Positions 10,788 to 64,000 of a stretch of DNA of 64,000 bases are shown in pieces. Source of the stretch: Eucommia ulmoides (Eukaryota > Streptophyta > Magnoliopsida > Garryales > Eucommiaceae); NCBI GenBank assembly GCA_016647705.1, contig JAENRU010000084.1:141001-205000 (forward strand), written 5' to 3'. The notes under the pieces are model-generated. The model searched no databases and was not told where the DNA came from. It saw nothing but the letters and a program-made list of their open reading frames with translations. Each line of letters begins with the position of its first letter. The first letter of the stretch is position 1. Made by a program: the position numbers and the translations under genes.

Positions 10788-11587
10788 CATAAAACAATCC
10801 TTGATTTAGTCTGCCTTTTACCCGTTGCCTATTTTTTTAAACTTTGTTCCACACCCACCCCTGCCGCATGCATTTTGACTTAATCCATTTGTCAAATTCA
10901 TTTCCTCCAAAAAGAAATAAAAATAAAAATGGAAGATTAGAGGGATAATTGACTTTTACCCCTTCTACTGTCCGCTTGTATAACTAAACTTCCCTTTACT
11001 TTAACCCATACTTTACAAGGGAAAATTCACATAATGTTAGTACCTCCAAATTGAATTTAGTATTTAAAAAAATATTATAAATTTGAATTTTGTTTAAATT
11101 TTAGTTTAATGCATTATTATGTTGCACATTAGGTAATATATGTAATTTAATTACTTCAGCGAAATTGCAAACCTGATCTCCCTTAAAACATCTTTCTCGT
11201 TTAAATGATGAATTGCTCACTACAATAACCCTAAAATTAATACAACACGGTTCACAAAATATATTAAGGTTATTATTATTTAGCCCTTATTTTGGTTTCA
11301 TTTTCCTCCATAGTTTTTTTTTTTTTTTTTTCTTAATTATTATTTAGTCCTCCAACAAAACATGGTTAATTTTTACTCCTTGAGAGATACTGAATAGACA
11401 TATTTACCCTTTTTTTTAGCCCGCGCAATATGTTGTTTTAGATAAAAAAAAAAAAAGAAAAAAAAAGAAAAAAAAAAAAATTCGTATATATATATATTTT
11501 TACATCAAACCGAATATAATATATCACTTTAATTTATTTATTTATTTATTTTTATCGAAAATGAACTCTATTAATGAATTGGAAAAA

Positions 11588-17242: not shown

Positions 17243-18528
17243 CTAATATTATTAGTTTAAAGAATCACGAAATATATTACTAATATCTACCCAAAACAAA
17301 CGTAATATGATTGAGAAATCTTTCAGCCTTAAATTTTATATTTTTGTTTTGTTTTGATTTTTAATTTATAATTTTGATTAAATGTAAATTTTAATAAATT
17401 ATATTTAGTTTTTGTTTAAAGAAACCAAAAATATTGATATAATTTTCATTTTCTATACCAATTTCTCTATTTTTATTTTTATTTTTCTCTTCGCATCTGC
17501 AATTATAATTCATAATAAGCTCTAAATGCAACTTGCAAATGAAAATATTGATAAATTATTTTTTGTAACTAATGCTTTTAATTTTTTGTAAACAAAATTT
17601 CCTCCGTCATGTCAAAATTATAAGATCTATTATCTGACTTCTTGGGACAAATTTGAAAAAAAATATTTAATTTACTTTTTTTTTCCTTGATATTATAGTA
17701 GTTTGTTTTTATTTAAATACCAAAAATATTGGTTAGGTATTTGCAGATTAAAAATTGATTTTTTCTTTTTTTTTCAATCAAGTAGATATCATCACATATC
17801 TTTGTTCTCGTTTCATATCTATCCACAACAAGATCAAAATGTTACCGGGGGCGAAGAAATCTACATGAATTGTTTTTGAATTATTCAACTTGGAAATACA
17901 GAATTTTACCTTCATTAGGAGTTTGTTAAAATTTATAATCTCAATTGACCATGTATCCCAAATATTTGAGATCCAGAAACAAACAATGACCATGTCCACT
18001 TCAAAATAATAATAATAATAATTACACTTTACCCCCTTCTAGTTTGGTTAATTTGCACTTATCCCCTGTAGTTTAAACATCGTCACTTACAACCCCTGTG
18101 GTCAGATTTTCAAACCATTTACCCCCTGATATAGGGGGGCTAAGTGCACCAAATATCTAACCATAGGGGGGGTGAGTGGCAATTTTCAAACCCACAAGGA
18201 AATAAGTGCAAATTGACTAAACCACAGAGGGTAAAGTGTAATTAACCCTAATAATAATAATGCAAATTAGAAATACATTTGACCCGATGATGCACTTTGA
18301 TTTTCAAAAGTAAGAAGTAAAGGAAGTTGAGGTTGGATCTGCCTTGGGGTTTTCCACGAAAAACTCGTGCTTTCCACTTTATTTTGTCATTTGTTTTTAT
18401 CTTGATTAATATCTGTGGGTATTAATTACGAATTTTGATCCCCTCAAAACATCTTTCTCGTTTAAATGATGAATTGCTCTATCCAATATCCCTAAAATTA
18501 GTCACAACGCGGTTCACAAAATATATTA
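17243..18528. repeat. Tandem repeat unit U1, unit 2
   Basis: Counterpart of 1481-2582 and 51277-52080. It ends with the shared GGTTCACAAAATATATTA (to 18528) and differs from the other copies mainly by the MITE at 18021-18249. No gene is seen. Confidence 0.65.
18021..18249. mobile_element. MITE with long terminal inverted repeats
   Basis: A ~230-bp insert lies within the (TAA)n tract of U1. Its two ends are inverted copies of each other over about 45 bp: the left begins TTACACTTTACCCCC and the right end, read in reverse complement, begins TTACACTTTACCCTC. Both continue with a ...TTAATTTGCACTTA-like stretch. The corresponding positions in the other copies (about 2205-2225 and 51690-51715) have only the (TAA)n tract, so this is a clean insertion. 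The duplication cannot be sized because the target is a microsatellite. No coding capacity. Confidence 0.75.
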
Positions 18529-18927
18529 CTACAATTATTAGTTAAGGGAATCTCAAAATATATTACCAATATTTACACAAACGTAGAATGATCGAGAAGT
18601 CTTCCGGCCTTAAATTTTATATGTTTTTATGCTTTGATTTTTTGTATATAATTTTAGTTAGATTTAAATTTCTCATTAAACTATATTTAGTTTTTATTTA
18701 AAGAAACTAATTATTTAGATAATTTGGATTTTCTATACCAATTTCTCTATTTGTTTTTCCCCTCCTCACATTTACAATTATAATTCATAATAAGCTCTAA
18801 ACATAAAAATATTAATAAATTATTTGTTGTGACTTATGTTTTTAATTTTTTTCATGCCAGCCACAAAATTTTCTCCGTCATATCAAAATTATTAGATCTA
18901 CTGTGTGGTTGCTTGGGACAAATTTGG

Positions 18928-27171: not shown

Positions 27172-27193
27172 TTCAGGCACGGGTTATGCCCTA

Positions 27194-27194
<1 letters not shown>
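27172..27194 (+). other. Helitron 1 3' terminal hairpin and CTAG end
   Basis: CGTGCC-TTCA-GGCACG forms a 6-bp stem, extendable by G-T pairs. It is followed by GGTTATGCC and the terminal CTAG, then the target T. Helitron 2 carries the same structure with an 8-bp perfect stem. A hairpin 7-12 nt upstream of CTRR is the diagnostic Helitron 3' signal. Confidence 0.88.
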
Positions 27195-32380: not shown

Positions 32381-33990
32381 TGTACGCTCGAGGACTCACA
32401 ACCATCGTTCTCACGGTAATTGACTACTCGAAAGTATACGAGGTCTAGTTTTAATATAACAGATCTTGTAAGATCGGATATCGTGCCACTGGAATTGCAG
32501 GTAATTCGGTTGAGTATTGCGATTTAAATAGTTTCATATTATCTCAACTAATCAAATTTTGTTTGTTTTTTATTTAATATACTAAGACAAACGACAGCTA
32601 TAAAATTAGTTCTAATTACACTAATTATTTAAGTATTGATTTCTTTTACATAATGCATAATCGAAGTCATTAAGTTAGCTATAATGGTTTTCTATCTATT
32701 TCGACAATCTCTGTAACGATAACTCCTCCGCTACCTCTCCCGAGTGTAAGACGGGGGATTACACGATTTCGTGTTAACGAATAAGTCCCCTTCAACGCCT
32801 TTACGACCTAAGGTCGCGTGAGTCTTTAGCCAACGTTATGGATTGCATACGTTCTAACGCCCTCCCGAGTCGTTAGAATGTCACGTTGTATTTACCTTAG
32901 TCCGAATCCAGGGTTATCTCTCCCGAGTGTCAAACCCCATATTCTCGGTTTATCAATACAAGCATAATATCAAGAATAATAGTAAACACAATTGGATTTA
33001 GACAAACAACACATTAAAGTAACATTAATTCATTCAACTTAACAATTATATTATTTCAACTACACCTAAGTAACATTTAACTAATACTATAAGATCATAA
33101 CCATATACCATACAAAATAAGAAGGATTCAACATTCTTAGATATGAAAAAGTGATTACAAAGATAAAAACAAGAGAAAAATGATCAAATCTGGAAGTGAA
33201 ACGGTTCACTGTCGCTAATGATCGATCCGCAAGTGATCCTTCTTTGTCCAAATGATGAACCTCCTTCTTGATCTTCAAAATATAGCTTAAGAGCTCTCTA
33301 CTAGGGTTTGGGTTCTTCAACAACTGGTTTCAGACATGGGAAATGGGTATATATAGGCCTAGGGGTTCAAAAATATCTAAACAAATATTTTGGGTTGTTC
33401 TGCGAATTCCGCCTAAGCGGTAGAATCTTCGCCTAGGCGGAGTTTAAGTCGGTTAGAATTCTGCCTAGGCGATGGTTTCTTCGCTTAGGCGGAGGACTAA
33501 TTTCTTGGGCCCCTTTCTTTCTGACGGAATTCCGCCTAGGAAGTAGTTATTTCGCCTAGGCGGATTTATAGCAGTACAGCTCTTCCAGCAGTTCAGCACT
33601 TCTAGCGTTCTAATAGATTTCCGCCTAGGCGGTGGAAACTTCGCCTAGGCGAATTTCAATACTTTAGCCCTTGCAACCTTTTGACGGATTTCCGTTTAGG
33701 CGGTGGAAACTTCGCCTAGGTGAATTTTCAACTTTTCAGCATTTGCAACTTTCTGATGAATTTTCGCCTAGGCGGTGGATACTTCGCCTAGGCGGAATTG
33801 CGATGTTCTTTGAAACCTCATTTTTTCATCTTTTTGGCTACCTTTTTCTCCACCATTTCGCTCGGTTTGCCGATTATTTACGTCTCTACTCCTGACTAAT
33901 AAAAACAGCTAAAAAGATATTCAAACTTCAATAAAATACTCGAAAACTGGCAAATTTGTTTAGAATTAGATAGGTATTTTACACCTATCA
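32381..33990 (-). mobile_element. Solo LTR E1 (Ty3/Gypsy-like), 5-bp TSD GCGTT
   Basis: On the minus strand it starts TGATAGGTGT (33990) and ends ...GAGCGTACA (32381), 1610 bp. It is flanked by GCGTT at 32376-32380 and 33991-33995. A paralogue is at 46979-48661. Internal landmarks shared by both are two CTCTCCCGAGTGT-type motifs (about 32740 and 32920) and a series of CGCCTAGGCG palindromes. The TGATAGGTG start and terminal layout remind me of Tat/Ogre-type Gypsy LTRs, but no internal region is present to confirm the lineage. Confidence 0.82.
33408..33796. repeat. CGCCTAGGCG palindrome series in E1
   Basis: Twelve perfect or near-perfect copies of CGCCTAGGCG(G) occur in pairs about 20 bp apart, with pairs about 70 bp apart. 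A shorter, more decayed series occupies the matching part of E2 (48010-48440). These are the most GC-rich points of an AT-rich LTR. Confidence 0.8.
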
Positions 33991-39000: not shown

Positions 39001-40072
39001 TTCAAAAAACCTAGCTTAAAGTGATATTCACAATCAGATCGAAGAAAACCAAAATCAAACGGAGAGAAATTGATTTAGAGAAAGAAACACACAACTGGAA
39101 TTCAAGAAGAATCCAGGGTTCAGCCCGAGGCATCGAGCAAAATCAGTGGTCAACTACTGCATCTCAGTTACGCAACAGCACAATCGAGAAAAATCACATG
39201 ACCTAACGAATCGAAGACCGAAGATTCAAAAAATTAGCGAGAATTCGAACCCCATTAACGTACGATTAGAAGAAAATAAAAGGTCAACCAACAGAAATCT
39301 CAAACGCAAAAAAATAAAATAAAAAATAATAATAATAATCTAACCCAGATACACAAAAACAGGGCAAAAACAACATACACCAAAAAGAAAGCGAATGTAG
39401 CTGAAGAAATGGTTCCACGCAAACCAAACAAAACCCATAAATTGTAGAAATACATACATTCCACATTGAATGCTCATTTACTTCACTTGTGAATCCAAAG
39501 ACATACATACAAACATACATATATACCACTCCCCTCAAAAATATTGATTGATTGCCGACTCCATTGCGCTCTTTCTCTAACTTTCTCCCTCTCCAAAGTA
39601 TATGCCATTGACCCTATATGGCGATCCTTCCCCCAACCACCTCATCAATGTCTCTCGGGGTGGGCAAGGGAGGCACAAGCGGTGTAAGTGGAGGTGGCGA
39701 AGGTGGTGGCGTTAAGGGAGGCGGAGTTGCAAATGGATGTCGAGAGAAGGAACGCAATGGAGAAATGCAGGAAAAATGATGTTGTGAAAAAAGAAAAATA
39801 CAAGTTGGTCCCTAAATTCGGAATAACTTACAAATAGATCCTAATAAATTAGTTTGAATAAAAAGATGAAATTATCATTATTTTTAACTTGAAATGACCA
39901 AAATACCCTTACTTACATGTTAACCGTTAATGTTGACCTAACAAAAGAGTCAATTTGGAACGAAAATCAAATACGAAAGACCAAATGTGAGGGGCCAATT
40001 AAGCACCCGAACCATTTATCAGGAACCTAAAAGGTCAACATCCCTGGAAAAAAATAAAATAAAAAAAATTCT
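36100..40072. other. AT-rich interval without a recognisable gene
   Basis: Only short, unsupported ORFs. A GC-richer patch at 38260-38440 and leader-like sequence at 39540-39780 look like parts of retroelement UTRs or LTRs, but I find no matching second LTR, no gag or pol motif and no splice-linked exons. Poly-A and AAT tracts are scattered. It ends at about 40073, where the duplicated GLP block begins. Confidence 0.5.
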
Positions 40073-40305
40073 ATTGCATTCATGCAAACATAATTCCCTT
40101 CAATCATCACCCCCATCCAGTTGGGATTGTAGGACTACAATCGTTTGTCTAACTCGAAGGGATAAGGTAGACCCAATAAGCTTTCTTCGCAACTTTTAAA
40201 TTTCACCCATGCTACTTCAGTTGGTTTTGGATCATTCTGCTAGGTGTGTTCGGGTTCTTCCAAATGCTCAATTTTTGAATTTAACTAACTCCGAAATTCA
40301 AATGA

Positions 40306-41815
40306 TCACATACTCCATGATACAGCATATGTAAAAATATCTACTCTAACATAAGCTTTGGAATAAATTAAGGCATGATTTTCTATAAAAATAACATAAG
40401 CTTGAAGATCATCAATCACGTTCTTGTCAACTTGGAATGCCTTGGTCAGAACATAAGGAGAGATTGGGGGGGTCGACCCAAACACAGCATTGGCAATGGT
40501 TATGACCCCTGGATTTTGGCTACTTAGACTAGCAAAAGCCACTGCATTGATCTTTTCGACATTGAATTGGAAGTGGATGAGCCCTATTGGGAAAACAAAA
40601 ACATCTCCCTTTCTCAGGACTTCGGTAAAAAAGGTGTTAGTGTTATTCATATTGGAGGTGACAAAGACGACATAGAGGGCACCTTCCACGATCACGAGGA
40701 TTTCTGTGGCACGAGGGTGTGTGTGGGGAGGGTTGAGGCCGTTGGGTGCAAAGTCAATGCGAGCAAAAGAGATGCCGAGAGTGTTTAGCCCGGGGATTTG
40801 TTGAACATTTACCAGTGTCACATTTGAACCAACCAGGTTGCTTGTGTTTCTAGGTTTGTCAAGTCCCGAATAAGAAAAATCACGGGCATTCACAAGCATT
40901 GGATCCTTGCAGAGTTTTCCACTGATGAAAACTGCATACACACATAAAATCATTTAGAATATATATTACACATACATATTTATAATATTGCTCAAAAGAT
41001 TTTAGTTGTCACTTGTATCGTTGCTTAAAAATGACTTATTACATCTATAGTTTAACGATTAGGTGTTTTAAATGGTGATTGTCATGTTAACTTTGATTAA
41101 ATAATTTGGGAATAGAGAAATATATAAATCTACTCATGAAAATAATGTTATTCACGAAAATAAGATAATTTTGACAACCCAACCGTCTTAAGCAAAATAA
41201 TTTGTTTCATTTTTCATCAGGATTGAAGTTATAGAATAAACCAATTTCACAATTAATGGTCTTGTATGGGGTAAAAAATAGTACCAAAATAAATTTGTCG
41301 TATAGGAAGGACCAATTTATTGTACTATTTTTCAAAACAAATCAATAAATCAATACATGAATAGTCATAAACTAATGTTTGATGGTAAAATAAAAACATT
41401 TGAATTACTTAGCTTACTATTAGCTTATATAATATTTTCTCGTATATTTGAATTAAAAAATAGTTTAAAAATTCTAATAAACTAAAATAACTGTATGCCT
41501 CTTTATTTCGAAATAAATAAACAAGATGTAAATTTTATGCAAAGATAGCTAAATGAAGAAATAAAGAAATAAATTTATAATTATAAAGTAATTCATTAAA
41601 TCGAATAATTTAGATGACCGAACAGGTTTTTAGTAATTAAAATAGAAAAAAATAAATTGAAATTGCAAATTTACAGGGAAATTAATATGAGATTCCTACC
41701 AACATTCTTGGGATCATCAATTGCAACACAGAAGTCTTGCAGAGGACTCGGGTCAGAAGCGTAGGCCATTTTACATGCCAACGTGAAGACATATATAGCC
41801 AAGGTAAATGGCCAT
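40306..41815 (-). pseudogene. Germin-like protein GLP-B, probable pseudogene
   Basis: The ancestral layout matches GLP-A: exon 1 complement(41700-41815), intron with GT...AG borders, exon 2 complement(40306-40931). The cupin core is preserved, including [13 protein letters not shown] and the GLIHFQFN box, so all four metal ligands remain. Two lesions separate it from copy A. A 5-bp deletion in the signal-peptide region shifts the original frame to a TAA after 14 codons. A ~330-bp deletion replaces the last five codons and stop with about 30 codons read from former 3' flank. A downstream in-frame ATG (41769) could start a ~231-aa product without a signal peptide, which would not be secreted normally. 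The promoter TATA box is intact, so transcription is possible. I favour a pseudogene. Confidence 0.85.
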
Positions 41816-41881
41816 TTTTTTTTTCTTAGAATATGATTTGATGAAGCTTTGAAGTGAGAAATTTTGGAAGAAAGGGTGACC

Positions 41882-41889
41882 TATTTATA
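41882..41889 (-). promoter_or_regulatory. TATA box of GLP-B
   Basis: TATAAATA on the minus strand, 67 bp above the ancestral start codon, identical in sequence and placement to GLP-A. Confidence 0.6.
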
Positions 41890-42897
41890 CAAAAAACAAT
41901 CCTTGATTTAGTCTGCCTTTTACCCGTTGCCTATTTTTTAAAACTTTGTTCCACACCCACCCCCGCCGCATGCATTTTGACTTAATCCATTTGTCAATTG
42001 CATTTCTTTCAAAAAGAAATAAAAATAAAAATGGAAGATTAGAGGGATAATTGCCTTTTACCCCTTCTACTATTCCCTTGTATAACTTAACTCCCCTTTA
42101 CTTTAACCCATACTTTACAAGTGAAAATTAGCATAATGTTAGTACTTCCAAATTGAATTTAGTATTAAAAAATAATATAAGTTTGAATTTTGTTTAAATT
42201 TTAGTTTAAAGCATTACTATGTTGCACATTAGGTAATATATGTAATTTAATTACTCCAACAAAATTACAAACTTGATCTCCCTTAAAACATCTTTCTAGT
42301 TTAAATGATGAATTGCTCACCCCAATAACCCTAAAATTAATAAAACACGGTTCACAAAATATATTAGGGTTATTATTATTTAGCCCTTTTTTTAGTTTCT
42401 CTTTCTTCAATAGATTTTTTATTAAAACAATTATTATTTAGTCTTCTAACAAAGCATGGTCAATTTTTACTCCTTGAGAGATACTGAATAGACATATTTA
42501 CTCTTACATACATAAGAAGAAATCCTAATTTTCCATTTTATTTTTGCATTTTCAACCTAGCTTATTCTTTCCTCTTTCCGACTCTCAACTGAACAGCCAC
42601 CGAACCCATCTCTTGCCACCATCCGTCTTCATCTTTATCACCATCATTGGCTTCCTCCATTTGATGATGCTGTCGCCGCCTGCACTCTGCTCATCGTTCA
42701 TCTTCCTCCATTGTGCTCGCCGACGTGTCGTGCTCCTCTTGCTCCATTAAATGACGACGATAACGATGCGTGTGATCTGCTCGTTGTTCGTCTTCCTCTA
42801 CCATGCTTGTCGTGCTCGCCGTTGCCACCGATGCTCATATTGGTCCATCCGATGCCAGTGGCCCGCTGTTGCCGCTGCCTGTACTCTGCTCGTTGTC

Positions 42898-42934
<37 letters not shown>

Positions 42935-43749
42935 ATTTGGAAAATTCCATATTAGGATTTTTTAGATCTAGAAAGTTCTAGATCTGAGAATTCCAGATCT
43001 AGATTTTCAAGATTTGTTCGTTCATGTGAATGTTCTAATTGGTCGTCGTGAATTTCAGATCAGTCAATGTTCATGTGATTTTCTAATGATTTTTGTGAAG
43101 TTTTTGTTTATAATTAATGCTTTTTTTGTTCATCTTAGTTTTTTTAATGTTCTTTAATTTGTTTTTTGCGAATATTTGCATCGTTTTTCAGATTTGTTTT
43201 GATTTTGTTGTTTTTTTTTTTTGTTTTGGTTGAGCTTTTTCTCTTATTTCATTCTGAATGTTCTTTTTGTTGATTTCTCAATAAATATTCATGTCGATTT
43301 GGTTTTTAGTGGATGTTCCTTGTCGTTTGGTGAATGTTCATATTTCCTTTTTTTTTTTTTTTTTTTTTTTTAAGTGAATGTTAACATGGTTAAGTGAAAA
43401 TGTTTATACTAGTTGTTTTTCTTTTACCTTAGTTTTTCTCAATTTTTTTTTTATTTTTTTTTGGTTTAATTGGCTTTTTCTAAATGTTCATACCGATTTT
43501 ATTTTTGTAGATCTTAGGTTTTCTTTTTTTAATGTTTTTGATTTGTTGTTTTTAGATTTATTTTTTTGAAATTGTAGTGTGAATGATCATAACACACAAA
43601 GAACATGAATGTTCTATTCTTGTAGATTTTCTGAATATGTGAAAAGAAAGTAAAATAGAAGAATGTGTGTACATAACAAAAATGTAATTTGCTCACATAA
43701 AAAATGTGAATAATCACAACAAAACCATCAGTGTTAAAATGTATTAAGA

Positions 43750-43780
43750 CTAGGGCATAACCCGTGCCTGAAGGCACGGG
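43750..43780 (-). other. Helitron 2 3' hairpin and CTAG end
   Basis: On the minus strand an 8-bp stem (CCCGTGCC/GGCACGGG) with a TTCA loop, 7 nt from the terminal CTAG. Compared with Helitron 1 the stem is longer and uninterrupted. Confidence 0.9.
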
Positions 43781-46328
43781 CGACAAAAAAAAGAAAAAAA
43801 AAACCCTATAAAAACTGATATAACTTCCCCTGTTTATACAACATTTTACAATTGTTTTATTAAAATTCAACAATAATTGACATTTAAATATCAATATCTA
43901 ATAACACAGATATTCGGCTATTAAAATAATAGAACTACCAATCCAAATCTCATTAGTATTTATTTGTAGAGAATTTTTTTTTTTTGGTACATAAGTAACA
44001 ATTGAACATCAATAATCAATTATACAACAATAATAGCGAACAATCGGGTCCCACAATCAAATAAAAATTAAACAACGGTGAAAAACTAAAATCGATCACA
44101 AAGAAGCAATACTCCATCACAACATCCAGTGCAACTGAAGCTTACCAATATTGCTCTGCGATTAAGTGATTAATTGTATGGCATGAAGCCATCATGGAGA
44201 CATAATAATAAAATAACAACTGACAAATTCGGCCCACTCCCCTTCATGCTAAATTGTGATCGCTGAGAATATGGAATGAAAATTTGAAATATATAAAATT
44301 AATTCAAATGAAATTTTAAACCAAAAAGATTGATGATGATTGAACTATACCACCAATTTTTTATAATCCTTTAAGCTGAATGAGAATAACCACACCAACA
44401 ATGACCAAGAGTTACTTCCACCAAGATTATATTTTAAGCTTGGCATTGGTGGTTAGTCTTATTAGACTAATAACCACATCCAATTACTTTTCAAAGACCA
44501 AGTATTTTTACTTTTTAGTGTGAAAAATAACTTAAATTTTCAAAGTATGTAAAATTTTCAACTTTTTTTTCCAAATAAGCACAAAAATAACCACACAGCC
44601 AATAACTTGTATATAAAAATTTTGACATAACCCCCTTTGTTTATGCAACATTTTCAAATTTTGAACTCCTGTTTTCAAATTAACACAACTAATAACTTCC
44701 AAACACGATATTAACCAATACAACTATAACAAACAAAATAAACACCATCAAAGTTTCGAATGAACAGTAACACAAAAAAAATTAGGAATGAACAATAATA
44801 CATACTTTGTGATATGAATTTGACAAACACAACTAATAACAAAACAACCAATAACGAATAAATATAAACTTAATAAAATAACACCACCACCCAAGACACT
44901 TAAGCCCACCATCCAAGACTCCTAGAACTTACCTTAAACATATATTGTCAAACTATAGATTAGCTTCATTAGATTTTGAAATGTTTGGGATGTCACATGT
45001 ATGTATATTGGCCAATGAAAGACAAACACAATGCATGTCAATTGTACAAATAAATAAGTTACTCTAAAATTGCGGACAACTTGAATTAAATTAAAATGAA
45101 GCAATTACCTAATGATTGTACCCCCATCAATTTATCGTCATCTTATTTGGTCGACCTACCTAAATCCATAATAGAAATAAGATAAATCAATAATATATAT
45201 ACATCTATCTATTTAAATGTTGAAGTATTTTTAAATCATAATTAGTCCAAGCGCATAACTTTAAAAAAAAAAAAATTGCAATAAATGATTGGCAAAAAGA
45301 ATTCCGGAAAACTTTTTAATTCTCCAATTTTGTATAACAAAAAAACAATAAACAAATGATTAGCAAGTACTTAATCACAAATCCAAACAAAAAAAAAATT
45401 CATGTCTCATATCAAATAACGTAAATTAAACAAACTCTAGATAAACTATAAATCCATAGTCCTTGAAAATTGATACATCATTATAAATGAAAATAAAAAC
45501 GCCAACAATATCTTAGTTTTACCTCGGATTGAATGGTAGTTGTGTTTTTTATCCATGGCAATCAAATACATATCGTGAATTGCATAATAATTGATAAAAA
45601 ATAACTATTTAGGAATTAATATTGTGAGTTTCATTCGTCTAATGGAAAAAAATTAATAGAACAACGGGGCATAAGTGAGGACATTGATAGTGTGGTAAGA
45701 CATACCTAGTACAGGGTCCCCAATGCTCAAGAAAATTTGCCCAAACCATAAAAGTAATTGCTCATATAAACAAAATTCAACCATCATTGACAAAACAAAG
45801 TATGAAATCAATTGAAAATAGTTGAACGGGGAAGATCCATATAGAAAATTTAAATCAATAATAAATTTAAATAACCATCTCCGATTTCCCTAAAAAATTT
45901 AGAACTAATCATCAAATTCATCAAAGATTACGGGTAATTAATGCGGTAATGATGAATTGAGCTAAGGAGAGTGTTTTTATTCTCAAATTTAAGTTTTTGT
46001 AACAAAAAATAAAATTAGAATAGAAAAACAAATCTAGGAACAATCCTGTTTTGTTCCTAGAATTTAAAAGTATCAGGGAAAAGAACAGAAACACATTTTC
46101 CCCATATTTTTGTTTCCATTCCTAGATTTCTATTTGTGTTTCTAGAGAATGGAGAACAAAATCATGGAAAAGGAAAAAAAATCTCCCTATGTTACCAGAA
46201 TTTAGAACAACATTTCATGTTCCACCTGAATGGGCAACGTATCTAAAGAACTACCAATTAAAGAAAAAAATATACAAATCCCTAAGTCAAAACTACAACT
46301 ATAATCGGCTTGACCAATACAAATATAC

Positions 46329-46593
46329 CTGGATGATTTAACAAGAGATGTAGACGGAGACCTTGATGGCGATTGAGAAACAGATCGTGACTTGCTAGAA
46401 ATAGAATTAATAAATATATCAGACACTGGGAAAGATGTTTTTAGAGGGGAAAATGAACCCCAAAAGAAATCTGCTCTTACCCCCTATTCTTTTCTGGACT
46501 CCTGCTTCTGCTTCTACTCCTGCTCTTACTCCTACTACCGAGGCTGTGGCTCCGGCTCTGGCTCCTTGAAGGACTATCTTCGTATCTCCTTAC
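46329..46593 (-). pseudogene. Helitron cargo: two exons of an SR splicing factor RS domain
   Basis: Exon A, complement(46481-46593), follows GGGTTAG and ends before GTAAGA. It reads VRRYEDSPSRS, then LGSRSKSRSRSRSRSPEK. Exon B, complement(46329-46394), follows TTTCTAG and ends before GTATAT. It reads KSRSVSQSPSRSPSTSLVKS. Spliced together the frame is kept (exon A ends two bases into a Gly codon). Dense Arg-Ser repeats just after a VRxY(D/E) stretch are typical of the RS tail of plant ASF/SF2-like SR proteins, whose tails are also split into small exons. No RRM domain is present, so this is a captured fragment on the Helitron sense strand. The exact paralogue is not determined. Confidence 0.65.
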
Positions 46594-46978
46594 CTAACCC
46601 ATATATAAGTGCAGACATCCATTAGCAAAATCTCATTAAAATGGAAACTTAACAGTCGTTCAGCATTATATATAAGTAAACCTAAACAAAACAGAATGAA
46701 TTAGGGAATGTTTGTGCATAGTTGGCACAATTGTTTTCTGGTGTGAGATAATACAAACGGTATGTTACACAAAAGCATTCATGGATTTTCTTTTTATATC
46801 CTTGGGTTGCAGGTAGGATTGGAAATGGGCATGGATCTTTTTGGTTAACCATCAACTTCTCAATCAATCATATTACTTTTTTAATTTTTATTAATTTAAA
46901 GAAATTTATAACTATTTTCAATCAATCACACATCAATGCACTCTTTCTTCACTTTTCAAAAGTTTCAACTACTCACAT

Positions 46979-48661
46979 TGGTGCCGCAAATAATGCGCTG
47001 CCACTTTCACCCAAGCGTACGGATCAAGTTTTAGTATAATGGACCTTTCGGTTGGGTATCGTATCCACAGGGATTGGTGTTGTTACTATCAAATATCACG
47101 ATTGTCATAACCTGACTTTATCTAGGCGATAAAAATGGAATTTAATTTAATACTAATACTAAACTAAAATACTAATTAAGTTAACTATACTATAAATACT
47201 AATTTAAGATTGTTTAGGGGAGTATATTTCCTAGGGATTAACCTTATTTACTTAAATGCGTTTGATTTCATTTTAGTTAACATTAATGGCGTTTGGCGTA
47301 TCCGACAATATCGGTTCGTAAACTCCCTCGCCATCTCTTCCGAGTGTAAGACGGGAGAATACGTGACTTCGTGTCAACGCCGAAGTCCCCCTCAACATCT
47401 TAACGACTCTAGGTCACGTGAGTCTCGCCCCACCGTCATCGATTGCGCACTTTCTAACGCCCTCCCGGGTTGTTAGATTGTCGTGTTGTGTTAACCCTAA
47501 TCCGAATCCGAGGTTACCTCTCCCGAGTGTCAAACCCCGTATTCTCAATATATCTAAACAAACATATAATCATAGAAAACACGACAACACAATCAACATA
47601 TGAAGGACAACCAAGAACAAAACACAAATTCAACCAAAACTACATTTTCAGAAATAATACGTTAATCCCTATTACAATCCATGTTTAACTCATGGCCCTA
47701 ACCATTTATACAATGTAAAACAAGCTAAACATGCTCAACAACTACTAAAATGAAGAAAATAAAGAGAAGAAACGAGTGACTTAGCCTATATCCGAAAATT
47801 TGGCGCTAGAATCGTCAAACAATTGCTTTCCTCTTCATCCTCCATCTCAGGTTGAGAGCTCTCCCTCAAAAATCCTTAACCCTACTCCTAAAATATGGCC
47901 TAAGGCCTTAAGGGTTGAAGAGCGAGAAGAGAGGAAGAGAGAAGGGATTAAAAATATCCAAAGATCTCAAAATATCTCATAAATATCAAGGTTGTACTGT
48001 AGGATTTTCTCTTAGGCGAAGTTAAGTCGGTTAACTTTCTGCCAGAATTTTGCCTAGGCTAAGAAAACTTTGCCCAGGTGAAGTTATTGCAGGTTTCCAA
48101 TTTTGTTTTGGCTGTAAATTCTTCATCTGAACTCCAATTGAGATGATTCAAAAACCTGTGGAAAGCTAAGAAAGAGATATACAACTTCCATGTTTTGAGC
48201 ATTTCCAAAATTAGATTGCATCATAGTCCAAAATAGACTTAAAGTTACAACACCTGTACCGGCTTTGCAGGTTTGGTGACCGCCTAGGCGAAGAAGTAGG
48301 CGGTAGACTTGAAAATGTTTCTATTGGGATTTCCACCTAGGTAGAGGAATCTCCTGCCTAGGCGGTGGGCTGTCAGTAGCCTTTTGTCATTCTCAGCATC
48401 TTCACTACCTAGGCGGAGGTCTGGACGCCTAGGCGGTGGGCTTCCTTCATATTTTTGCCTCCTGGCTTGTTTATCCACCATAACTTCGACTCGCCTTTGG
48501 TTCGATCTCATCGTTTTCACTCTAGTTCCTATCTTTTTGCTCTACACACCTTATTTACACAAAAAGTATAAAAACATATTTAAACATATAAAAATAACTA
48601 TAAACGTACTCGAAAACTAACAAATTCGAATTGGAAATACGTAGGTAATTTACACCTATCA
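46979..48661 (-). mobile_element. Solo LTR E2 (Ty3/Gypsy-like), 5-bp TSD CACAT
   Basis: Same family as E1. On the minus strand it starts TGATAGGTGT (48661) and ends ...TTTGCGGCACCA (46979), 1683 bp, flanked by CACAT at 46974-46978 and 48662-48666. It shares the two TCTCCCGAGTGT-type blocks (about 47340 and 47520) and decayed CGCCTAGGCG palindromes (48010-48440). It sits inside Helitron 2, between the RPT6-like and SR-like exons, so it inserted after exon capture. Confidence 0.82.
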
Positions 48662-49273
48662 CACATCAAATAACTTCAACTTTTAATTTTTAAATATTAT
48701 TAATAAAGATCTTCTTTCAAGAAAAAATCTTAATCATACCAAATAAGTTTTTACAATTTTAAAAATCTGTATTAGAAAATACTTGAAAATTGATCTCTGA
48801 GTTCTAAACCAAACGATTCCTAAAGATCTCGGGATGAAATAGGGTTGGTGGAAGTACCCGAATGTAAGATCTAGTCCAAGGATTCCAGAATTCACTGTCA
48901 TCCAATTTTTGAATCTGAGCTACAAAAACAATGTCAGCTTTCAAAATTGAACTGAAAAGAAAGGGAGGAACTAAAACAATCAACAAAAGCATTCATATAA
49001 TACAGTAGGTTCCTGAATATCAACATCATACAAAATTATAGAATACGGAAAGATCAAGAAAAAGCATTCATATAGAATAGTACAGAGAGAGAGGAGGTGA
49101 TGATCAACAACCAATTACATGACATACCCTCTCTGTGACGGGAAACCTTAAAATACAACAAAATAATGTCTGCACCTAGGTGCAAAGTATGCAGAAATTA
49201 GATATGCATATATAGATATATGCATATTCATGGGTTTTGAAATTGAAATAAGGAACTTGTGTAGAGAATAAAC

Positions 49274-49331
49274 CTTAGGAATTGAGATCGTTGCGCTGGG
49301 CCTTAAGGCGTTGGAGATTGTGCATCTTCTG
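49274..49331 (-). pseudogene. Helitron cargo: RPT6-like proteasome ATPase exon fragment
   Basis: On the minus strand 18 codons read QKMHNLQRLKAQRNDLNS, followed by TAA at the position of the next codon and then GTTTATT. This strongly resembles the coiled-coil segment near the N-terminus of 26S proteasome regulatory ATPase RPT6 (consensus QK-HNL-RLEAQRNELNS). The stop could come from one substitution. The fragment is short, so identity rests on this single motif. No AAA domain is present. It is on the same strand as the neighbouring captured exons. Confidence 0.55.
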
Positions 49332-49941
49332 GCTTATTAAAGTTGACACAAAAGAAGCAATCCAGTGTCGGCTTGTGGTCACGACTTCTTGATAGTCATG
49401 ACTCAAGCATAAGCCCATGTTTAGATCCAAATAGAAATGGATTTAGCCAAATCAAGCTCAGTTTGGAAGCTATTATTTCCTAAATCAGAAACAAAAATCA
49501 ATTTCAAGGAGAATAGTGTTAGGGTTTCAAGGGAGACGGCGGAGGAGAGTTAAAAAGAGAGAGAGAGAGAGAGAGATAATCGTACCAAAGCGCGAGCATG
49601 TTTCACCTTGAGCCTCTGGGGAATAAAAACAAAAACATTTAGGTAAAACAGAAAAACAATAATTAGTACACACAGATAAAAATTATAGTTAGAAATTCAT
49701 GTTATTTTAGGTGTTTTGGTGAAGTATTTTGGGAGAAGATTTGATTCTGTTATGGGATCTCTGAAATTCATAAGTTAAAAATTCTTGGATTTTTTAAATT
49801 GGATTTTGGGAGGCAGGGGTGCTGTAAAATGACATTAAATCAATACAAATTGAATTTTGAAATATTTACTCAAGCACCGGATTTGCAAATGAAACAATGT
49901 AATTCCATATCCAAACACACTTCAAGAGAATGATTCAATAC

Positions 49942-50511
49942 CTTCATCTGTAACAGCATTTTCCCAACCTCCAAGTCCAGTAGCAAACTGCTTGAGAACA
50001 GCCTATTGTGACATTGAGAAAAGAAGGGGGAGGAGGGATAATCAGCGACAAACAACACAGAAGAAGGTTACAGGGGGAATGATTAAATAGATTTAACAAT
50101 TACCTAATTAGCATTCACAAAGATACAATTTAATATCTCAAAACTTGGATCAAACTATAACATGAACAAATCAAACACTTTTCTATAGAATTGATTACAG
50201 TAATAGTTGGAGCATTATTGAAGTATGAACACAACATACAATCCACGCACACAAAAATTGAAGATGAAACGATGCAATCAGAGTCAACGATGGATAGAAC
50301 AAACTGAATACCGGACATATGCATTCTAAAGATGAAGAAACCACAACTATTTTTTATCTACAACTCAGTGAATCGAATTAGGGCTTGTCCGCCTCTGTGT
50401 GTGTGTGAATGTGTGTGTGTGTGTGTGTAAGAGAGAGAAAAATTCATACCTGTTGTTGCTTGGCGACCTGCTCACTGAGCTTTGTTGCTTGCTTTTTGTT
50501 TGGGCTTCAAT
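49942..50511 (-). pseudogene. Helitron cargo: exons 1-2 of an SH3P-like (BAR/SH3) protein
   Basis: Exon 1, complement(50450-50511), reads KQATKLSEQVAKQQQ up to a GTATGA donor. Exon 2, complement(49942-50002), after a TTGTGACATTGAG-side CAATAG acceptor (minus strand), reads AVLKQFATGLGGWENAVTDE up to a GTATTG donor. Together they match the N-terminus of plant SH3-domain-containing proteins (SH3P1-3; BAR-type trafficking proteins), including the known exon break after the QQQ. The expected start codon is ATT (50509-50511) and the next few codons carry an indel. The rest of the BAR and SH3 domains is missing. Upstream lies GC-rich leader-like sequence (50520-50760). Confidence 0.75.
50399..50428. 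repeat. (GT)n microsatellite
   Basis: GT-rich tract in the intron after the SH3P-like exon 1. Confidence 0.8.
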
Positions 50512-51276
50512 GATGACGGTGAAGGAGTTTAGTGGCAGTGGTGGCGACGGCGGCAGCCTTCGAAGAGGAGGAAGACGGGGGAGAGAGTGAGCACGATGGT
50601 GGTCGTCGAGGCGTAATTGATCGGCGGGGATTGGTGGTCGTCAAGAGAGAGATGGCGAGAGAGGGAATGAGAGGGCCAGAAGCAAGAGAGTAAAGGCCGA
50701 GAGAGAGTATGTAGAAGAGGAATTCAGTATAATCCGAGAATAGAGAGAAAATTGCTAGATTTCGGGGCAGTTTGGGTAAAGGGGTGACGAGATTTTGGGT
50801 AACAATTATAAAAAAGTGTTGAGATTTTAGGGTGGTTGGGTAAATTTTAATCTTTGACCCTTAGATCTAATCCAATCTGATGGCTCAAAATATCTCTTGA
50901 TATCATTCAATCTCGGCCGTTGGATATTCGATCCAATGGCCCAAAATGTCTCAAAATGTAATCTCAGCCGTCAGATATTCGATCCGACGACTCAAAATGT
51001 CTCAAAATGTAAATATGTTGTGATTTATAAATAGATAGTTAAAAATAAAAAATAAAAATATGAATGTTCACGGCCACATATATTTTACAGAGTATATTTT
51101 ATGTAAATTATGAAGAAAAAAAATATATGGTCAAATAACAAAACATTATTCTCTAAAACACATATGAGCTAAAAACTTTATCATAATAATATAGTTCTAT
51201 TTTATAATTTGTATATCTCTAGAGGACTCAATAATAAAATTCCATATATTGTCAAATAATAAAATTCCATATATTA

Positions 51277-52080
51277 CTAATATTATTAGTTTAAAGAATC
51301 ACAAAATATATATGTGACTTCTTGGGACAAATTTGAAAGAAAAAATATTAATTTACTTTTTTTTTCCTTGATATTATAGTAGTTTTTTTTTTTTTTTTTA
51401 AATACCACAATTATTGGTTAGGTATTTGCAGAATAAAAATTGATTTTTGTTTTTTTTCTATCAAGTAGATATCAACACATATCTCTGTTTTTCTTGTTTC
51501 ATACCTATCCACAACAAGGTCAACATGTTACCGGGGGAGAAGAAATCTACATGAATTGTTTTTGAATTATTCAACTTGGAAATACAAACTTTTACCTTCA
51601 TTAATATTTAATTAAAAGTCATCATCTCAATTGACCATGTATCCCCAATATTTGTGATCCAGAAAACAAAAAATAACTATGTCCACTCCAAAATAATAAT
51701 AATAATAATAATAATGCAAATCAGAAATACATTTGACCAGATTATGCACTTTGATTTTCAAAAGAAAGAAATAAAGGAAGTTTCGGTTGGATTCGCCTTC
51801 GGGTTTTCCACGAAAAACTGGTGGTTTCCACTTTGTTTTGTCATTTCTTTTTGTCTTGATCAATATCTGTGAGTACAAAAATTAGTAAGTCGAAAAATAA
51901 AAACTAATTAATTGTTGAAATTTCTCAACACTATGTTGTACTTTAAGTTATATATGTAATTTCAATACTCTAATCAATTTACGAATTTGATCCCCTTAAA
52001 ACATCTTTCTTCTTTAAATGATGAATTGCTCAATCCAATATCCCTAAAATCAGTCACAACGCGGTTCACAAAATATATTA
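51277..52080. repeat. Tandem repeat unit U1, unit 3
   Basis: Counterpart of 1481-2582, with a ~310-bp deletion close to its start: at about 51308 the sequence jumps from CACAAAATATAT to GTGACTTCTTGGGAC. No gene. Confidence 0.65.
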
Positions 52081-53450
52081 CTACTATTATTAGTTAAAAG
52101 AATCTAGAAATATATTACCAATATCTACACAAACGTAGAATGATTGAGAAGGCGTCCGGCCTTAAAGATCATATTTTTTTTATGCTGTGAATTACCACAA
52201 AGTACTGTTTTAAATTTCCATGTACCAATAAATACCAATTAGTTAAAATTGAAAAAAAAAAACTCCCATCCTAATCATTTTTTGAACTGATTAGTCTCAT
52301 TTTAAAAAAATCTTACATGATAAATTACCAATTTGCCCCTATTCATTTTAACCCTACCATCTCTTCCAAACACACATTATCTCTTCCGTCCCCACCAATT
52401 CTCCCGTCTACATCACCGCCGCTTCACCGGCAACGAACACCCTCCCCCTCCGTGTCACCTCCTCGTCACACTCCCTTATCGAGCGCTTGAAGCTTTCCCA
52501 CAAGATCCAAGAGCACCTTCAGCTCTGCCGCATTTAACTGCACCTCCTCCGAAATTTATCGCCGGCCAAAACCCTAGCCTTCTAGATCGTTTGGTTCCAG
52601 ATCCACGACTTGTTTGATGCTCGGCTGGACAATTAGGTGTGTTCTGATCAGGTGCATTTAACATGTACGATTCATTTGATGCTTGGCCAGACATCTTTGT
52701 TTTCTGCCGTACTTCATCACCGTTAGATTGTCCCATGATTGCCCCAGAAGTTATCCCTCATGTTTGGATGGAGTATTATATTCAACAAGCACAATCTTTT
52801 GGTTTTTATTGCAGATAGTCATATCGATTGATTAGAAGTTTAGGGATGAAAGTGTAACCCTATATATATTGATTAGAATTAAAACTTAGATTATTAGTGG
52901 TCCTAATTGGATAAGGGGATTATTGTTACTATTTTAATTAAATAGATAAATTTTAATTTTTCATAAATCAAAAATTTATTTATCCAATGATAGCTTCCTT
53001 AATTGGTATAATCAAGTGTATTTTATATATTTGATATTATCTACTTATATATGTGAATTTTGAGAATTGATTCAGATCTTAAAATTGTTTGAGCTATGTG
53101 ATTAGTTTTGTTTGGTTGTATAGAAAAATTAAATAAACGTTATTTGTAGCTTAATTAAATTACATGTGAACCTAGATTTTGTTCAGTGGCTCAAATTGAA
53201 TTGAATTGAATTAAAAGTGCATGATCATCGGAAGACATTTATACACATGTCTAGGGTTATTACATATTTTTTGTGATGCATTTGATCCCATTAAGTATAT
53301 GCTTGTATGGGGCATTATTTATTTTGTTTATATATATATAATGCATGTTAAACATACTAAATACGAAAACAATAAAATCTAAAATCCAAAATTTCTCAAA
53401 GCAAATATGAAGTTGAAAGTGGCAGTATATCAGATATGCATCTCCATGAT
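52081..53450. repeat. Tandem repeat unit U2, unit 3, with exon-like insert
   Basis: Near-identical to 2583-3965, including the GC-rich exon-like part (52350-52740). There a plus-strand frame (52333-52617) and a minus-strand frame (52476-52736) are both open; neither product is recognised. Homology ends at GATATGCATCTCC (53450). Confidence 0.6.
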
Positions 53451-53454
53451 ATCT

Positions 53455-60373: not shown

Positions 60374-63300
60374 CTATATCCATGTCCCCTCACATTCTGG
60401 TCGTACATAAAACGCATTGTTATTCCCCTCATCTTCATCGTTATCATCTTCTAGATCTATGGTATCAGCACTCGGAATTACTGGAGCGAGGCAATTGTGT
60501 TCAATACAACAATCATTCATCTTATCAACATCTTCATCATTTCGATAGTCTTTTCGAGGAGCAGTTAGCACGACTGACCATCTAGAATCAATTTGATCTC
60601 GAACATAAAAAACTTGTTTAGCTTGCGAAGCTAAAATGAAAGAGTCAGATTTATGGCCAATTCTATCGAGTTCCACTAAAGTGAAACCAAGATCATCTAC
60701 TTTAACTCCCTTCTTACTGTCAACCCAATCACATTTGAATACTGGAATCATAAACTTGTTATAGTCAAGTTTCCATATCTTAGTTATGACTCCATAATAA
60801 GACAAATCTACATAAACGGAATTTTTATCCTTTGCACTTGAAATATGCATTGTCGAAGCCACTAAACTCACTCCGCTATTCTGGGTGACTCGTGAATCAT
60901 CCCGATCCCTCGTGTGGAAATGACATCCATTAATGATGTATCCTTGGAACTTTATTACTTCGTATTGAGGTCCATTTGCTATCGACTTTAAGCTATCTGA
61001 GATATCATTTTCATTTTTGACCCACAAATATTGGCATACTTTATCCATTTTAGCAATAATAACGAACAATTAAAACTAAGAAGTAAACTAGTGTATACCT
61101 TTTTACGCAACCAATTACTAAAGGTGTTGTTGTGTTCAATTCGTAACCATTGTTGGTTTTTAGTGGGAAATTTTTGCTTCAACCAAGTCATATGCTTCCT
61201 GTAAATAATATGAAGTACCGAAAATTATTTTATATAGATATTTTGGTTAAAAAAATGAAAAAGTAAACAAGAGAATAAAGAGCATACTCAAGATACGGTT
61301 GAACATCGTTTGTGTTCTCCAGCACATATCGATGCGCTTGTTGCAACTGTTTCCGATCAACAGCAACGACAACACCACTTGATAAAGGCCTACCTATGTC
61401 TACATCATCCTCGACTATATTTCTATCTGATGGAATGCCAATGGTACCCATCCAGATAGATATGAATTACAAAACTCAACAGCTTCTTCTGCAATGTAAC
61501 ATTCTGCAATGCAACCTTCCGGACAATTACGATTTCGAACATAACCCTTAATAACTTTCATGAACCTTTCAAATGGATACATCCATCGAAAATAAACAGG
61601 ACCACATAGTTGGACTTCTCTAGTGAGATGTACTGTCAGATGAATCATGATGTCAAAGAACGACGGAAGAAAAAACTTCTCTAATTGGCATAATGTCGTA
61701 ACAACTTCTTTTTGCAGTTCATCTAGCTTTGACACATCCACCACCTTACTACATATGGCATTGAAGAAGAAACAAAATCTAATGATGGCATATCTCACAT
61801 GCTTGGACAACACAGATCTTAATGCAACTGGTAATATTTGTTGCATTAGTATATAGCAATCGTGAGATTTAAGGCCATAGAGTTTCAAATCTTCCATGGA
61901 CACACGATTCCGTAAATTTGAAGAGTAACCTTCTGAAACCTTGAGTTCTGACAAAGTCTTACAAACTCTTTTTTTCTCATCCCTCGATAACGTGTAACAA
62001 GCTACAGGTAGATATGTTCTGTTCGGCCCATATGTTGGTGCTAACTCGTCGCGTATTTTCATAGTTACAATGTCCTCCCGAGATTTGACTGTATCTTTCG
62101 TTTTTCCTGGAATGTTGAGCAATGTACCAAAGATGCTATCACATACATTTTTCTCAATATGCATAACATCAAGGATATGTCGAACATGCAAGTGTTGCCA
62201 ATATTCAAGGTCAAAAAATATAGATTTTTTGTTCCAACATGTACCAATATTTTTCGTGTCCGAGTTTCCATTCTTCTTTCCCCACATAGAAGGGATTCCT
62301 TCAACCTTACTCAATAGTTCGTCTCCCTTTAACGGGAAAGGTGGTGATCCAAATTCTTGTTTTCCATTAAATACATTTTTCTGCCTACGATAAGGATGAT
62401 GTCGCGGAAGAAATCTTCTATGGCCAGCATATGACATCTTCCTACTATGTTTTAATCTAACAGTAGATGTTTCTTCACCGCATATTGGACATGCAAGATA
62501 TCCCTTGACCCGACATCCACTCAAATTGCCATACGCAGGAAAATCATTAATTGTCCATAAAAGTACGGCCCTTAACATAAATGATTGCTTTTTATAAGCA
62601 TCGTAGGATTCGACTCCAACATCCCATAGAATTTTTAAATCATCAATCAACGGTGCAAGATAAACATCGATGTCTTTTCCTGGTTGTTTTGGCCCTGATA
62701 TTAGCAGTGATAGCATCATAAACTTCCTTTTCATGCATAACCACGGCGGAAGATTGTAGGTGACCAATATAACTGGCCAACAACTATATCTACTGCTCAG
62801 AGAACTATGTGGATTGATTCCAGCTGCTGAAAGGGCTAGTCGAAGGTTTCTTGGGTCTGTTGCGAAATCTGGCCACTTGTGATCTACCAACTTCCACGAA
62901 AGGGAATCTGCTGGATGACGTAGTTGGCCATCAACTATTCTTTCTTCAGCATGCCAGACTAACTCTTTGGCTATCTCCATCGACTGAAACATCCTTTTAA
63001 ACCGTGGGATAGGTGGAAAATACCATAACACCTTTTCCGGTACTCCTTCTCTTGTCTCAACAGAATTATGAGATTTTCTTTTCCATCTTGATTCACCACA
63101 TGTGGAACTAGTAATTGCATCCACATAATTTCCTCTGTACAACATGCAATCATTAGGACATGCATGAATCTTCTCATATTCCATGCCTAATGCAGTCAAC
63201 GTTTTCTTAGCCTCATAGGTTGATGGTGGGATTTCGTTATCGAGCGGTAGCATGTCCCTCAACAATGTCAATAGCTCAGAAAAGCCAGTATTAGACAACC

Positions 63301-63790
63301 CAAAACTTTCCTTTAGGTTATAAAGTTTTACCAATGCAGACAATTTTGTATACTTGGTACACCCTGGGTACAAAGCTTTTTCAGCATCTTCAACCAATTT
63401 ATGGAACGTATTAGGGTCTTCCATAAATTTATCGTGCGCTGCATAAACCATCTCAACTCCACCAACTTCGTCGTTTAAAGGAGAACTTCTAAATTGTTGA
63501 TGGACAAAATTATAGTCATTCATATCTGGATTTGCATTATTAGGAGTTGTATCATTAGGAGTCATTTCTCCATACCATATCCATACACGGATACTCTGAT
63601 CTATACCATTACAAAATAAGTGATTTCTTATATCTCGAACATGTTGGCTTATCAGGTTGCCACATTTTTTACATGGACACCGTATCCAATGAGGATCATT
63701 AGAATTTGTCACAGCAAAATCTAAAAAATATTCTACTCCTTCCCCATATTCTCTTGATCTTCTATCTTTGCACAACCATGATCTATCCAT
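60374..63790 (-). CDS. CACTA TNP2-type transposase (PF13963, TNP2, DUF4218, DUF4216), frameshifted
   Basis: Starts at ATG 63790 (MDRSWLCKDRRSREY), the usual start of the transposase-associated domain with its CPCKKC zinc motif. A long exon reaches 61415 with TNP2 hallmarks (WPVILVTYNLPPWLCMK, DIDVYLAPLIDDLK, LLWTINDFPAYGNLSG, KGYLACPICG, RHILDVMHIEKNVCDSI). The DUF4218 region follows (SYILMQQ-like, YFRWMYPFERFMKVIKGYVRN). Near 61448 the frame must shift by one base to continue as GTIGIPSDRN…GRPLSSG. An intron with GTATGC…TTACAG borders then leads to KHMTWLKQKF (61191) and a DUF4216 exon (to 60374; YGVITKIWKLDY, VFKCDWVD). The single-base break suggests this copy is inactive unless it is spliced out. 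Catalyses CACTA excision and integration in active relatives. Confidence 0.85.
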
Positions 63791-64000
63791 GATTAGACTG
63801 GAAAAAAAAATCATATGATATTGGTAAGAGATGAGAGTCAAAGGGAAAAGAAATTTGGGATTGGATTTGGGGAGAGGGGAACAGGAATTTAATACATAAG
63901 AAAAATTATGATGAACTGATTGGTTAAGAAGAATCACACACGTCATCAGTTCAACTGGTAATTTCACACTTCACATGTTTTCTCCGTCTTCAACCCCACC

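Follow-up and report, generated by a model that had tools for sequence, protein, structure and literature searches.

The window, i.e. the whole 64,000-nucleotide stretch of Eucommia ulmoides DNA analysed, contains a Helitron that carries, all sense on one strand as originally predicted, pieces of an SH3P gene and of an RPT6 proteasome ATPase gene together with two exons coding for RS repeats (Table 1). Comparison of the window copy with two empty paralogous sites delineated its bounds as A^TC...hairpin...CTAG^T, without any target duplication. The 5′ end reads TCTATT..., and the 3′ hairpin is followed by TTATGCCCTAG. The hairpin fold has an energy of −10.2 kcal/mol (z −4.39), which none of 200 shuffles equalled, and the combined hairpin and CTAG pattern was found 1,896 times in the 947 Mb of genome searched (at most two mismatches) versus not once for the reversed control. 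No open RepHel frame is apparent in the element, the only stop-to-stop frames of at least 110 aa touching it being 117 and 122 aa long, and the window was without match in an Rfam scan (gathering threshold) as well as in a tRNA scan. Insertion between A and T without duplication, the 5′ TC and the 3′ CTRR end with its hairpin are the features of non-autonomous plant Helitrons, of which the element is a textbook example; its assignment to the Helitrons in the original prediction was therefore correct. Pack-MULEs likewise hold fragments of several genes within one element, and the cargo as such would suit a Pack-MULE or another terminal-inverted-repeat element bearing gene pieces. However, this explanation is refuted by the absence of a target duplication in the empty-site comparison, the ends TCTATTTATA and GCCCTAG are not mutual inverted repeats, and its probability is practically nil.

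Table 1. Features of the Helitron and its empty sites, in window coordinates
Feature	Position	Strand	Basis or remark
Whole non-autonomous Helitron	43750..51035	minus	7,286 bp including nested insert; missing from two paralogous window segments
Empty insertion site, paralogous copy A	1276^1277		comparison within window
Empty insertion site, paralogous copy B	16999^17000		comparison within window
5′ terminus TC	51034..51035	minus	host A opposite T51036
3′ terminus CTAG	43750..43753	minus	host T on minus strand at 43749
3′ subterminal hairpin CCCGTGCC-TTCA-GGCACGGG	43761..43780	minus	fold
Repeated module adjoining SH3P, holds ATT	50496..50571	minus	also in L041 and L044
SH3P-derived segment	49676..50498	minus	gapped match of 85–86%, across introns as well, to SH3P gene on contig C8 (L021)
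SH3P exon 1 part	50498-50450	minus	then intron 1
SH3P exon 2 with 59-nt deletion	50002-49942	minus	then part of intron 2
Module with 30-nt mini-exon-like piece (49615-49586) between AG and GT	49438..49674	minus	common to L041, L043, L044
Candidate fusion junction of two Helitron lineages, 7-nt microhomology AAATCCA	49438..49444	minus	alignment of window, L016, L041, L043, L042, L045
RPT6 module: exon remnant 49333-49274 keeping its splice donor, followed by donor intron	49143..49444	minus	common to second Helitron lineage (L042, L044, L045)
Nested TG..CA insert, solo-LTR-like, 1,683 bp	46979..48661		5-bp duplication CACAT at 46974-46978 and 48662-48666
RS-repeat exon 1 (SR-like)	46481..46593	minus	splice donor GT; 5′ border less clear
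RS-repeat exon 2 (SR-like)	46329..46394	minus	bounded by AG and GT; phase fits that of exon 1
Module common to RPT6-carrying Helitron lineage	45647..46279	minus	sequence comparison

Among the other 15 copies fetched, 14 have no nested insert here and the fifteenth (L024) is deleted across the place; a relative of the insert sits elsewhere in L022. Comparison with L022 ruled out a boundary at 46937 with the duplication CACATCAA in favour of the limits given in Table 1.

The cargo had been described as exon pieces of three unrelated genes, and for two of them the source was found in the same genome. The match of the SH3P segment to a seemingly complete SH3P gene on C8 extends from exon 1 across intron 1 and exon 2 into intron 2, which bears out the predicted exons 1 and 2 with their splice borders. 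Searches of Pfam and PDB with the SH3P piece gave no meaningful match because it is only 35 aa long; its identity was resolved by the genome search. The RPT6-like ATPase fragment was confirmed by its best PDB match (8amz_J, E 6e-4), the nine others of the ten matches being 26S proteasome subunit 8, and by its donor, an RPT6 gene on contig C10 that is matched together with the following intron. Since both matches run into introns, capture occurred at the DNA level, and internal segments from intron-containing host genes are characteristic of gene-capturing Helitrons. For the third piece, a donor was sought by DNA (with the window copy and the L019 copy) and by protein, and every place that emerged belongs to the Helitron family or derives from it. 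One of them, L046 (C17:7246803), was rejected as SR donor, being an internal-deletion derivative of the family; C68:267712 is a similar place. The best Pfam match of RS-repeat exon 1 (E 0.96) is below significance. The two exons, phase-compatible as predicted, probably come from a third host gene; composition and splice sites fit an SR gene, which may have been their source.

Two details of the cargo called for another explanation than the one first given. The ATT upstream of the SH3P exons had been read as the SH3P start codon, but it is present in all 16 aligned copies and belongs to a repeated module, and the same ATTGAAGCCCAAACAG occurs in L044 where no SH3P is found; it is accordingly no decayed SH3P ATG. 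Module and SH3P join at CAG (50498-50496), which is CAA in the window copy. An unusual conservation of the 30-nt mini-exon-like piece was considered and dropped, as its divergence of 5.6% equals the average.

The prediction spoke of one Helitron, but at least 23 places in the genome hold all three pieces (26 of 50, 24 of 50 and 26 of 29 matches in three genome searches, the others being partial matches); this number is a lower bound because only 40 candidates were scored in each of the two larger searches. Six further places contain one or two pieces only, one of them being the SH3P donor itself. The alignment used below comprises 16 copies, namely the window copy and 15 of 20 loci drawn from the at least 23 places. 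Contig C68 holds six of the places with all three pieces, which descend from a single insertion that segmental duplication has multiplied: besides the window copy, five C68 copies were fetched, and all five share its 5′ host flank (95–98% over 100 bases) and three of them its 3′ host flank, while L009 and L011 end 146 bases short of the 3′ end and continue into other sequence. One might accordingly suppose that host segmental duplication moved the gene pieces as a block and that the Helitron label is incidental. Outside C68, this supposition is refuted by the different flanks of the 10 fetched copies, and the empty sites demonstrate an exact insertion; we regard it as extremely improbable. The family is represented by multiple copies with the same ends at unrelated sites, as expected for a Helitron. 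Several copies have altered 5′ ends, CTAG is altered in L012, L013, L015, L022 and L023, and L009 and L011 are without a 3′ end.

Whether the cargo is under selection was assessed from the divergence of 11 of the 16 aligned copies, the five other C68 copies being left out because they represent the same insertion as the window copy. Raw divergence of all five captured exons exceeds that of the whole element. After separation by base composition, the change from consensus is, however, nearly equal in exons and elsewhere, with 0.075 versus 0.071 at G/C sites and 0.013 versus 0.011 at A/T sites. Over all exons, 47 of 1171 third codon positions have changed versus 112 of 2384 first and second positions; in RS-repeat exon 1 the third position is the most changed (21/382 versus 14/393 and 19/393), with a chi-square P of 0.43. 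Within the limits of short exons and small counts, no purifying selection on the coding exons was thus detected by divergence. Splice dinucleotides are intact in 105 of 110 examined cases. Drift alone predicts that about 92% are left, i.e. nine losses compared to the five seen (binomial P 0.11, counting every copy as independent even though six come from C68), and a maintenance of splice sites is therefore not demonstrated. Preservation of splice borders had been predicted for the SH3P and SR pieces only; both keep them, but so does the RPT6 piece, whose donor GT persists in 15 of 16 copies.

These data bear on the most attractive interpretation of the locus, a functional exon-shuffled gene with a spliced chimeric mRNA encoding an SH3P-RPT6-RS peptide. 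The common orientation of the pieces, the largely intact splice dinucleotides and the compatible phases of the RS exons are in its favour, and the proposed exon-shuffled transcription unit survives in the weak sense that splice sites are present, not in that of sites kept beyond drift. However, the SH3P start codon is missing in all 16 copies, a 59-nt deletion relative to the donor exon shifts the phase of SH3P exon 2 in each of them, and the RPT6 piece ends with a stop as its last full codon in 14 of the 16 (TGA in 13, TAA in the window copy); the stop noted originally thus applies to most aligned copies, with CGA retained in two. Doubts about a translated full-length product were justified, and a functional chimeric protein, rejected for the lack of constraint on the exons, is very improbable. 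Exon divergence equals that of the rest after correction for base composition, the third position does not change faster and stops occur frequently; the cargo thus has the appearance of an unselected passenger. Alternatively, it might give rise to small RNAs silencing the Helitrons and, in part, the donors SH3P and RPT6; siRNA reservoirs of this kind are reported for maize in a review (PMC13317346). Perfect donor 21-mers found in any of the 16 copies amount to 14 of 48 for SH3P exon 1, 35 of 103 for exon 2 and 20 of 182 for the RPT6 exon, and the CGA to TGA changes would fit decay of methylated cytosines. In contrast, the window copy alone retains only 0, 1 and 6 of these 21-mers, respectively, and no sequence feature demands a role of small RNAs, which leaves this alternative unlikely.

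How, then, was the passenger cargo assembled? SH3P is found without RPT6 in one Helitron lineage, another has RPT6 twice but no SH3P, and the chimera unites the two; representatives of either parental lineage coexist in one genome with the fused family and its 7-nt junction. This constellation suggests that the chimera was fused from two older cargo-carrying Helitrons. Multi-gene Helitrons might in general arise beyond one-gene-at-a-time capture by such fusions, with rolling-circle replication switching templates where short homology exists, a generalization that we hold with slightly more doubt than trust. L044 could reflect a later loss of SH3P and not a state before its capture.

The spread of a non-autonomous element requires a partner. 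The genome search for RepHel yielded 739 first-look candidates, of which 150 were scored and all 150 exceeded the cut-off, many with frames of more than 1,100 aa. Pairing was analysed from C1 to C5:16.07 Mb, the range spanned by the 100 perfect 3′ ends that were listed, in which 29 of the 150 RepHel matches lie: in 12 of these 29, an identical 3′ end follows downstream on the same strand at less than 9 kb, whereas none has one upstream on that strand or on the other strand. Judged by matching 3′ ends, autonomous partners are present.

From these data we propose a scenario whose step order is suggested by five relatives (L041–L045), read in part. One Helitron lineage would have captured DNA from the SH3P gene on C8 and another from the RPT6 gene on C10. 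Both lineages would then have been joined by fusion at the 7-nt microhomology, and a further fusion or capture may have added the segment with the RS exons. The composite Helitron presumably spread by rolling-circle transposition, with autonomous relatives that share its 3′ end providing RepHel in trans, while on C68 segmental duplication would have multiplied it. Its cargo would be decaying neutrally without coding function. A multi-copy non-autonomous Helitron family built stepwise by lineage fusion, mobilized in trans and decaying neutrally is, in our judgement, very probably the correct description of the locus.

The way in which Helitrons gain several gene fragments is not settled, and a single genome that offers two of the donors, relatives with part of the cargo, a junction that can be read and empty sites makes the order of events directly testable. 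The locus also demonstrates, in numbers, that a suggestive exon-shuffled arrangement can be plain neutral cargo. It is a well-documented case of a known process, and neither a new gene nor a new kind of element is demonstrated by it. RepHel-encoding Helitrons of the same genome share the identical 3′ hairpin and CTAG end and differ by the RepHel frame itself, the window element offering only its two short frames. As in the maize Helitrons of PMC4528327, which yield chimeric, differentially spliced transcripts, exons of unrelated genes are intertwined in one element and splice sites are present; unlike those, the Eucommia Helitron is known from sequence alone. Maize gene-capturing Helitrons carry 0–12 gene fragments per element acquired by stepwise capture, according to Dong et al. 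2011 (PMC3288121), and the Eucommia element resembles them in being non-autonomous, in its CTAG 3′ end, in its several gene fragments, in their stepwise capture and in cargo pieces common to related elements. It differs from them in the plant, in the SH3P and RPT6 donors and in the join of two cargo-bearing lineages, which can be recognized here by a 7-nt microhomology.

The host segment around the studied Helitron occurs in three paralogous copies in the window, A (1-11411, in part), B (15694-18640) and C (40056-53452, in part), of which A and B are uninterrupted and C is interrupted. Their alignment delimits the insertion to 43750-51035, flanked by a host A on one side and a host T on the other with zero duplication. 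In minus-strand orientation the insert begins with TCTATTTATAAATC and terminates in the hairpin CCCGTGCCTTCAGGCACGGG followed by TTATGCCCTAG. These are Helitron ends, and the original prediction of a Helitron is thus borne out by the end sequences together with the empty paralogous copies A and B. The same segmental duplication (1-11411 / 15694-18640 / 40056-53452) contains two cupin (germin-like) frames on the minus strand, 9260-9937 and 40306-40953 (Pfam Cupin_1), and lies on the contig where the Helitron insertion also multiplied.

That contig, C68, belongs to a 947-Mb plant assembly, in which the SH3P segment gave 50 listed matches, 20 of them spanning the full 570 bases. Fifteen of the 20 fetched loci are copies of the studied Helitron. 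Most of the window element aligns collinearly with each of them, apart from deletions or inserts in some, at 84-97% identity by block (90-97% in most blocks). The internal insert of the window element is absent at that place in 14 of the 15; the remaining copy, L024, is deleted across it. The flanks differ in the 10 copies outside C68. On C68, the 5' flank of the window copy is present in all five other fetched copies (95-98% over 100 bases) and its 3' flank in three of the five. L009 and L011 on C68 stop 146 bases short of the 3' end, beyond which both run into one and the same foreign sequence; they therefore share a later rearrangement. We take the six C68 copies to descend from a single insertion through segmental duplication. 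Combining the rows of three genome searches, SH3P, RPT6 and RS pieces occur together at at least 23 places, two of which, both on C59, have just the first of the two RS exons. L020 and L046, which derive from the family by internal deletion, are joined across the gap at identical points (element positions 4573 and 5236); this suggests that a subfamily spread once the deletion had arisen.

The donor genes expected in this genome were found for SH3P and RPT6 and not for the RS exons. The SH3P gene on C8 (L021) is apparently complete, as an SH3P protein query matches it exon by exon; its joined exons match SH3 domains (best E 1.6e-10) and, with a score below the cut-off, the BAR domain (E 0.006). 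The Helitron match starts inside exon 1 and runs through intron 1 and exon 2 into part of intron 2. Two RPT6 genes were found, and the Helitron piece matches 191-205 bases of that on C10, intron included, versus just 70-73 bases of that on C14; the exon end position is identical in donor and Helitron. Since the matches extend into introns, the capture took place at the DNA level rather than by retroposition. DNA and protein searches of the genome revealed no RS-exon donor, nor did Pfam give a significant match. These exons have an RS-domain-like appearance and good splice borders, and their assignment to an SR protein gene is a reading of composition. A 30-nt AG|..|GT mini-exon-like piece (window 49586-49615, minus strand), for which no donor gene was found, shows average divergence among copies (5.6%).

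Helitron-type loci with other cargo have parts in common with the fused family. L041 contains the SH3P segment, bounded by almost identical donor breakpoints (L021 1200-2155) and with exon 2 undeleted, and the next module including the 30-nt piece; RPT6 and RS exons are absent. L042, L044 and L045 each have two copies of the RPT6 segment as well as the module of window 46279-45647, and lack the SH3P segment and RS exons in the fetched stretches. Of nine Helitron-type loci with other cargo scanned for the 3' end, six (L025-L028, L043, L045) show the hairpin and CTAG farther downstream in the correct orientation; the fetched stretches of L041, L042 and L044 gave none. As far as ...GGCTAAATCCA the fused family agrees with L041 and L043; from AAATCCATTT... 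onward it agrees with L042 and L045, and the two lineages overlap by 7 nt at the join. L044, which lacks SH3P, has both stretches bordering SH3P in the fused family, ca. 90 nt apart. The first of these contains ATTGAAGCCCAAACAG, whose ATT had been proposed as a decayed SH3P start codon; the stretch is therefore part of a different module, and CAG marks where this module meets SH3P. The SH3P exon-2 region also occurs alone in other Helitron-type loci, with a donor identity of 93-94% (L025, L026) or 88% (L028); L026 (4438-6582) has it three times, spaced ca. 920 bp apart.

Eleven copies that stem from separate insertions differ pairwise by 5.8% on average. The five captured exons diverge by 6.4-9.9% versus 4.7-6.6% for the captured introns measured, and are thus not conserved. 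The gap between exons and rest is largely base composition: at G/C sites, change from consensus is 0.075 in exons versus 0.071 outside them; at A/T sites the values are 0.013 and 0.011. Over the five exons together, codon position 3 is no faster (47/1171) than positions 1 and 2 (112/2384); only RS exon 1 peaks there (chi-square P 0.43).

Changes by codon position in the captured exons
Exon	Position 1	Position 2	Position 3	Sites per position
SH3P exon 1	14	4	13	165
SH3P exon 2	21	8	5	220
RPT6 exon	9	5	2	198
RS exon 2	5	13	6	206-216
RS exon 1	14	19	21	382-393

All 16 copies have ATT. As the final RPT6 codon, 13 of the 16 read TGA, two read CGA, and the window copy has TAA. Of 110 splice dinucleotides examined, 105 are intact, where drift at these rates would leave ca. 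101 (P 0.11). From these results we take the cargo to be a passenger that is not under selection. Perfect 21-mers are common to Helitron cargo and donor exons, so that small-RNA effects on the donor genes are possible.

Only two stop-to-stop frames of at least 110 aa (117 and 122 aa) touch the studied Helitron, which thus lacks an intact RepHel, the protein of autonomous Helitrons. The genome yielded 739 first-look RepHel candidates; all 150 that were scored exceeded the cut-off, and open frames of 1,162-1,199 aa are frequent among them. The 3'-end pattern has 1,896 genomic matches (up to 2 mismatches) versus 0 for the reversed control. In a sample of 100 listed perfect 3' ends and the 29 listed RepHel hits in the range they cover, 12 of the 29 are followed on their own strand by such an end at a distance below 9 kb; none has one upstream there, and none has one on the other strand within 9 kb. 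A natural inference is that the studied Helitron would be moved in trans by RepHel elements with matching 3' ends.

Further elements lie nearby. Another Helitron, located on the plus strand, has the same GCACGGGTTATGCCCTAG end (27177-27194), its 5' end perhaps near 19000, where a stretch resembles the studied Helitron's 5' region (78% over 216 bases, inverted). A solo-LTR-like TG..CA element with a 5-bp duplication and GCCTAGGCG-type repeats is found at 46979-48661 and 32702-33990, and in L022 (about 3636-5508) within the second RS exon. A transposon at 60374-63970 (minus strand), presumably CACTA-type, contains an 851-aa Transposase_21 frame (61415-63970) and DUF4216 (60374-61069).

Among the 15 top-ranked of 608 literature matches none combined Helitron with SH3P, and the composition SH3P, RPT6 and RS is probably undescribed. 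Gene-fragment-carrying Helitrons as a kind are well known: maize Helitrons reportedly have up to a dozen gene fragments, stepwise acquisition and related elements with common parts (PMC3288121), chimeric transcripts (PMC4528327) and, according to a recent review, captured pieces as siRNA reservoirs (PMC13317346). The present case is somewhat unusual in that a single genome lets one read the fused family and its junction, members of the two parental lineages, two donors and the empty sites.
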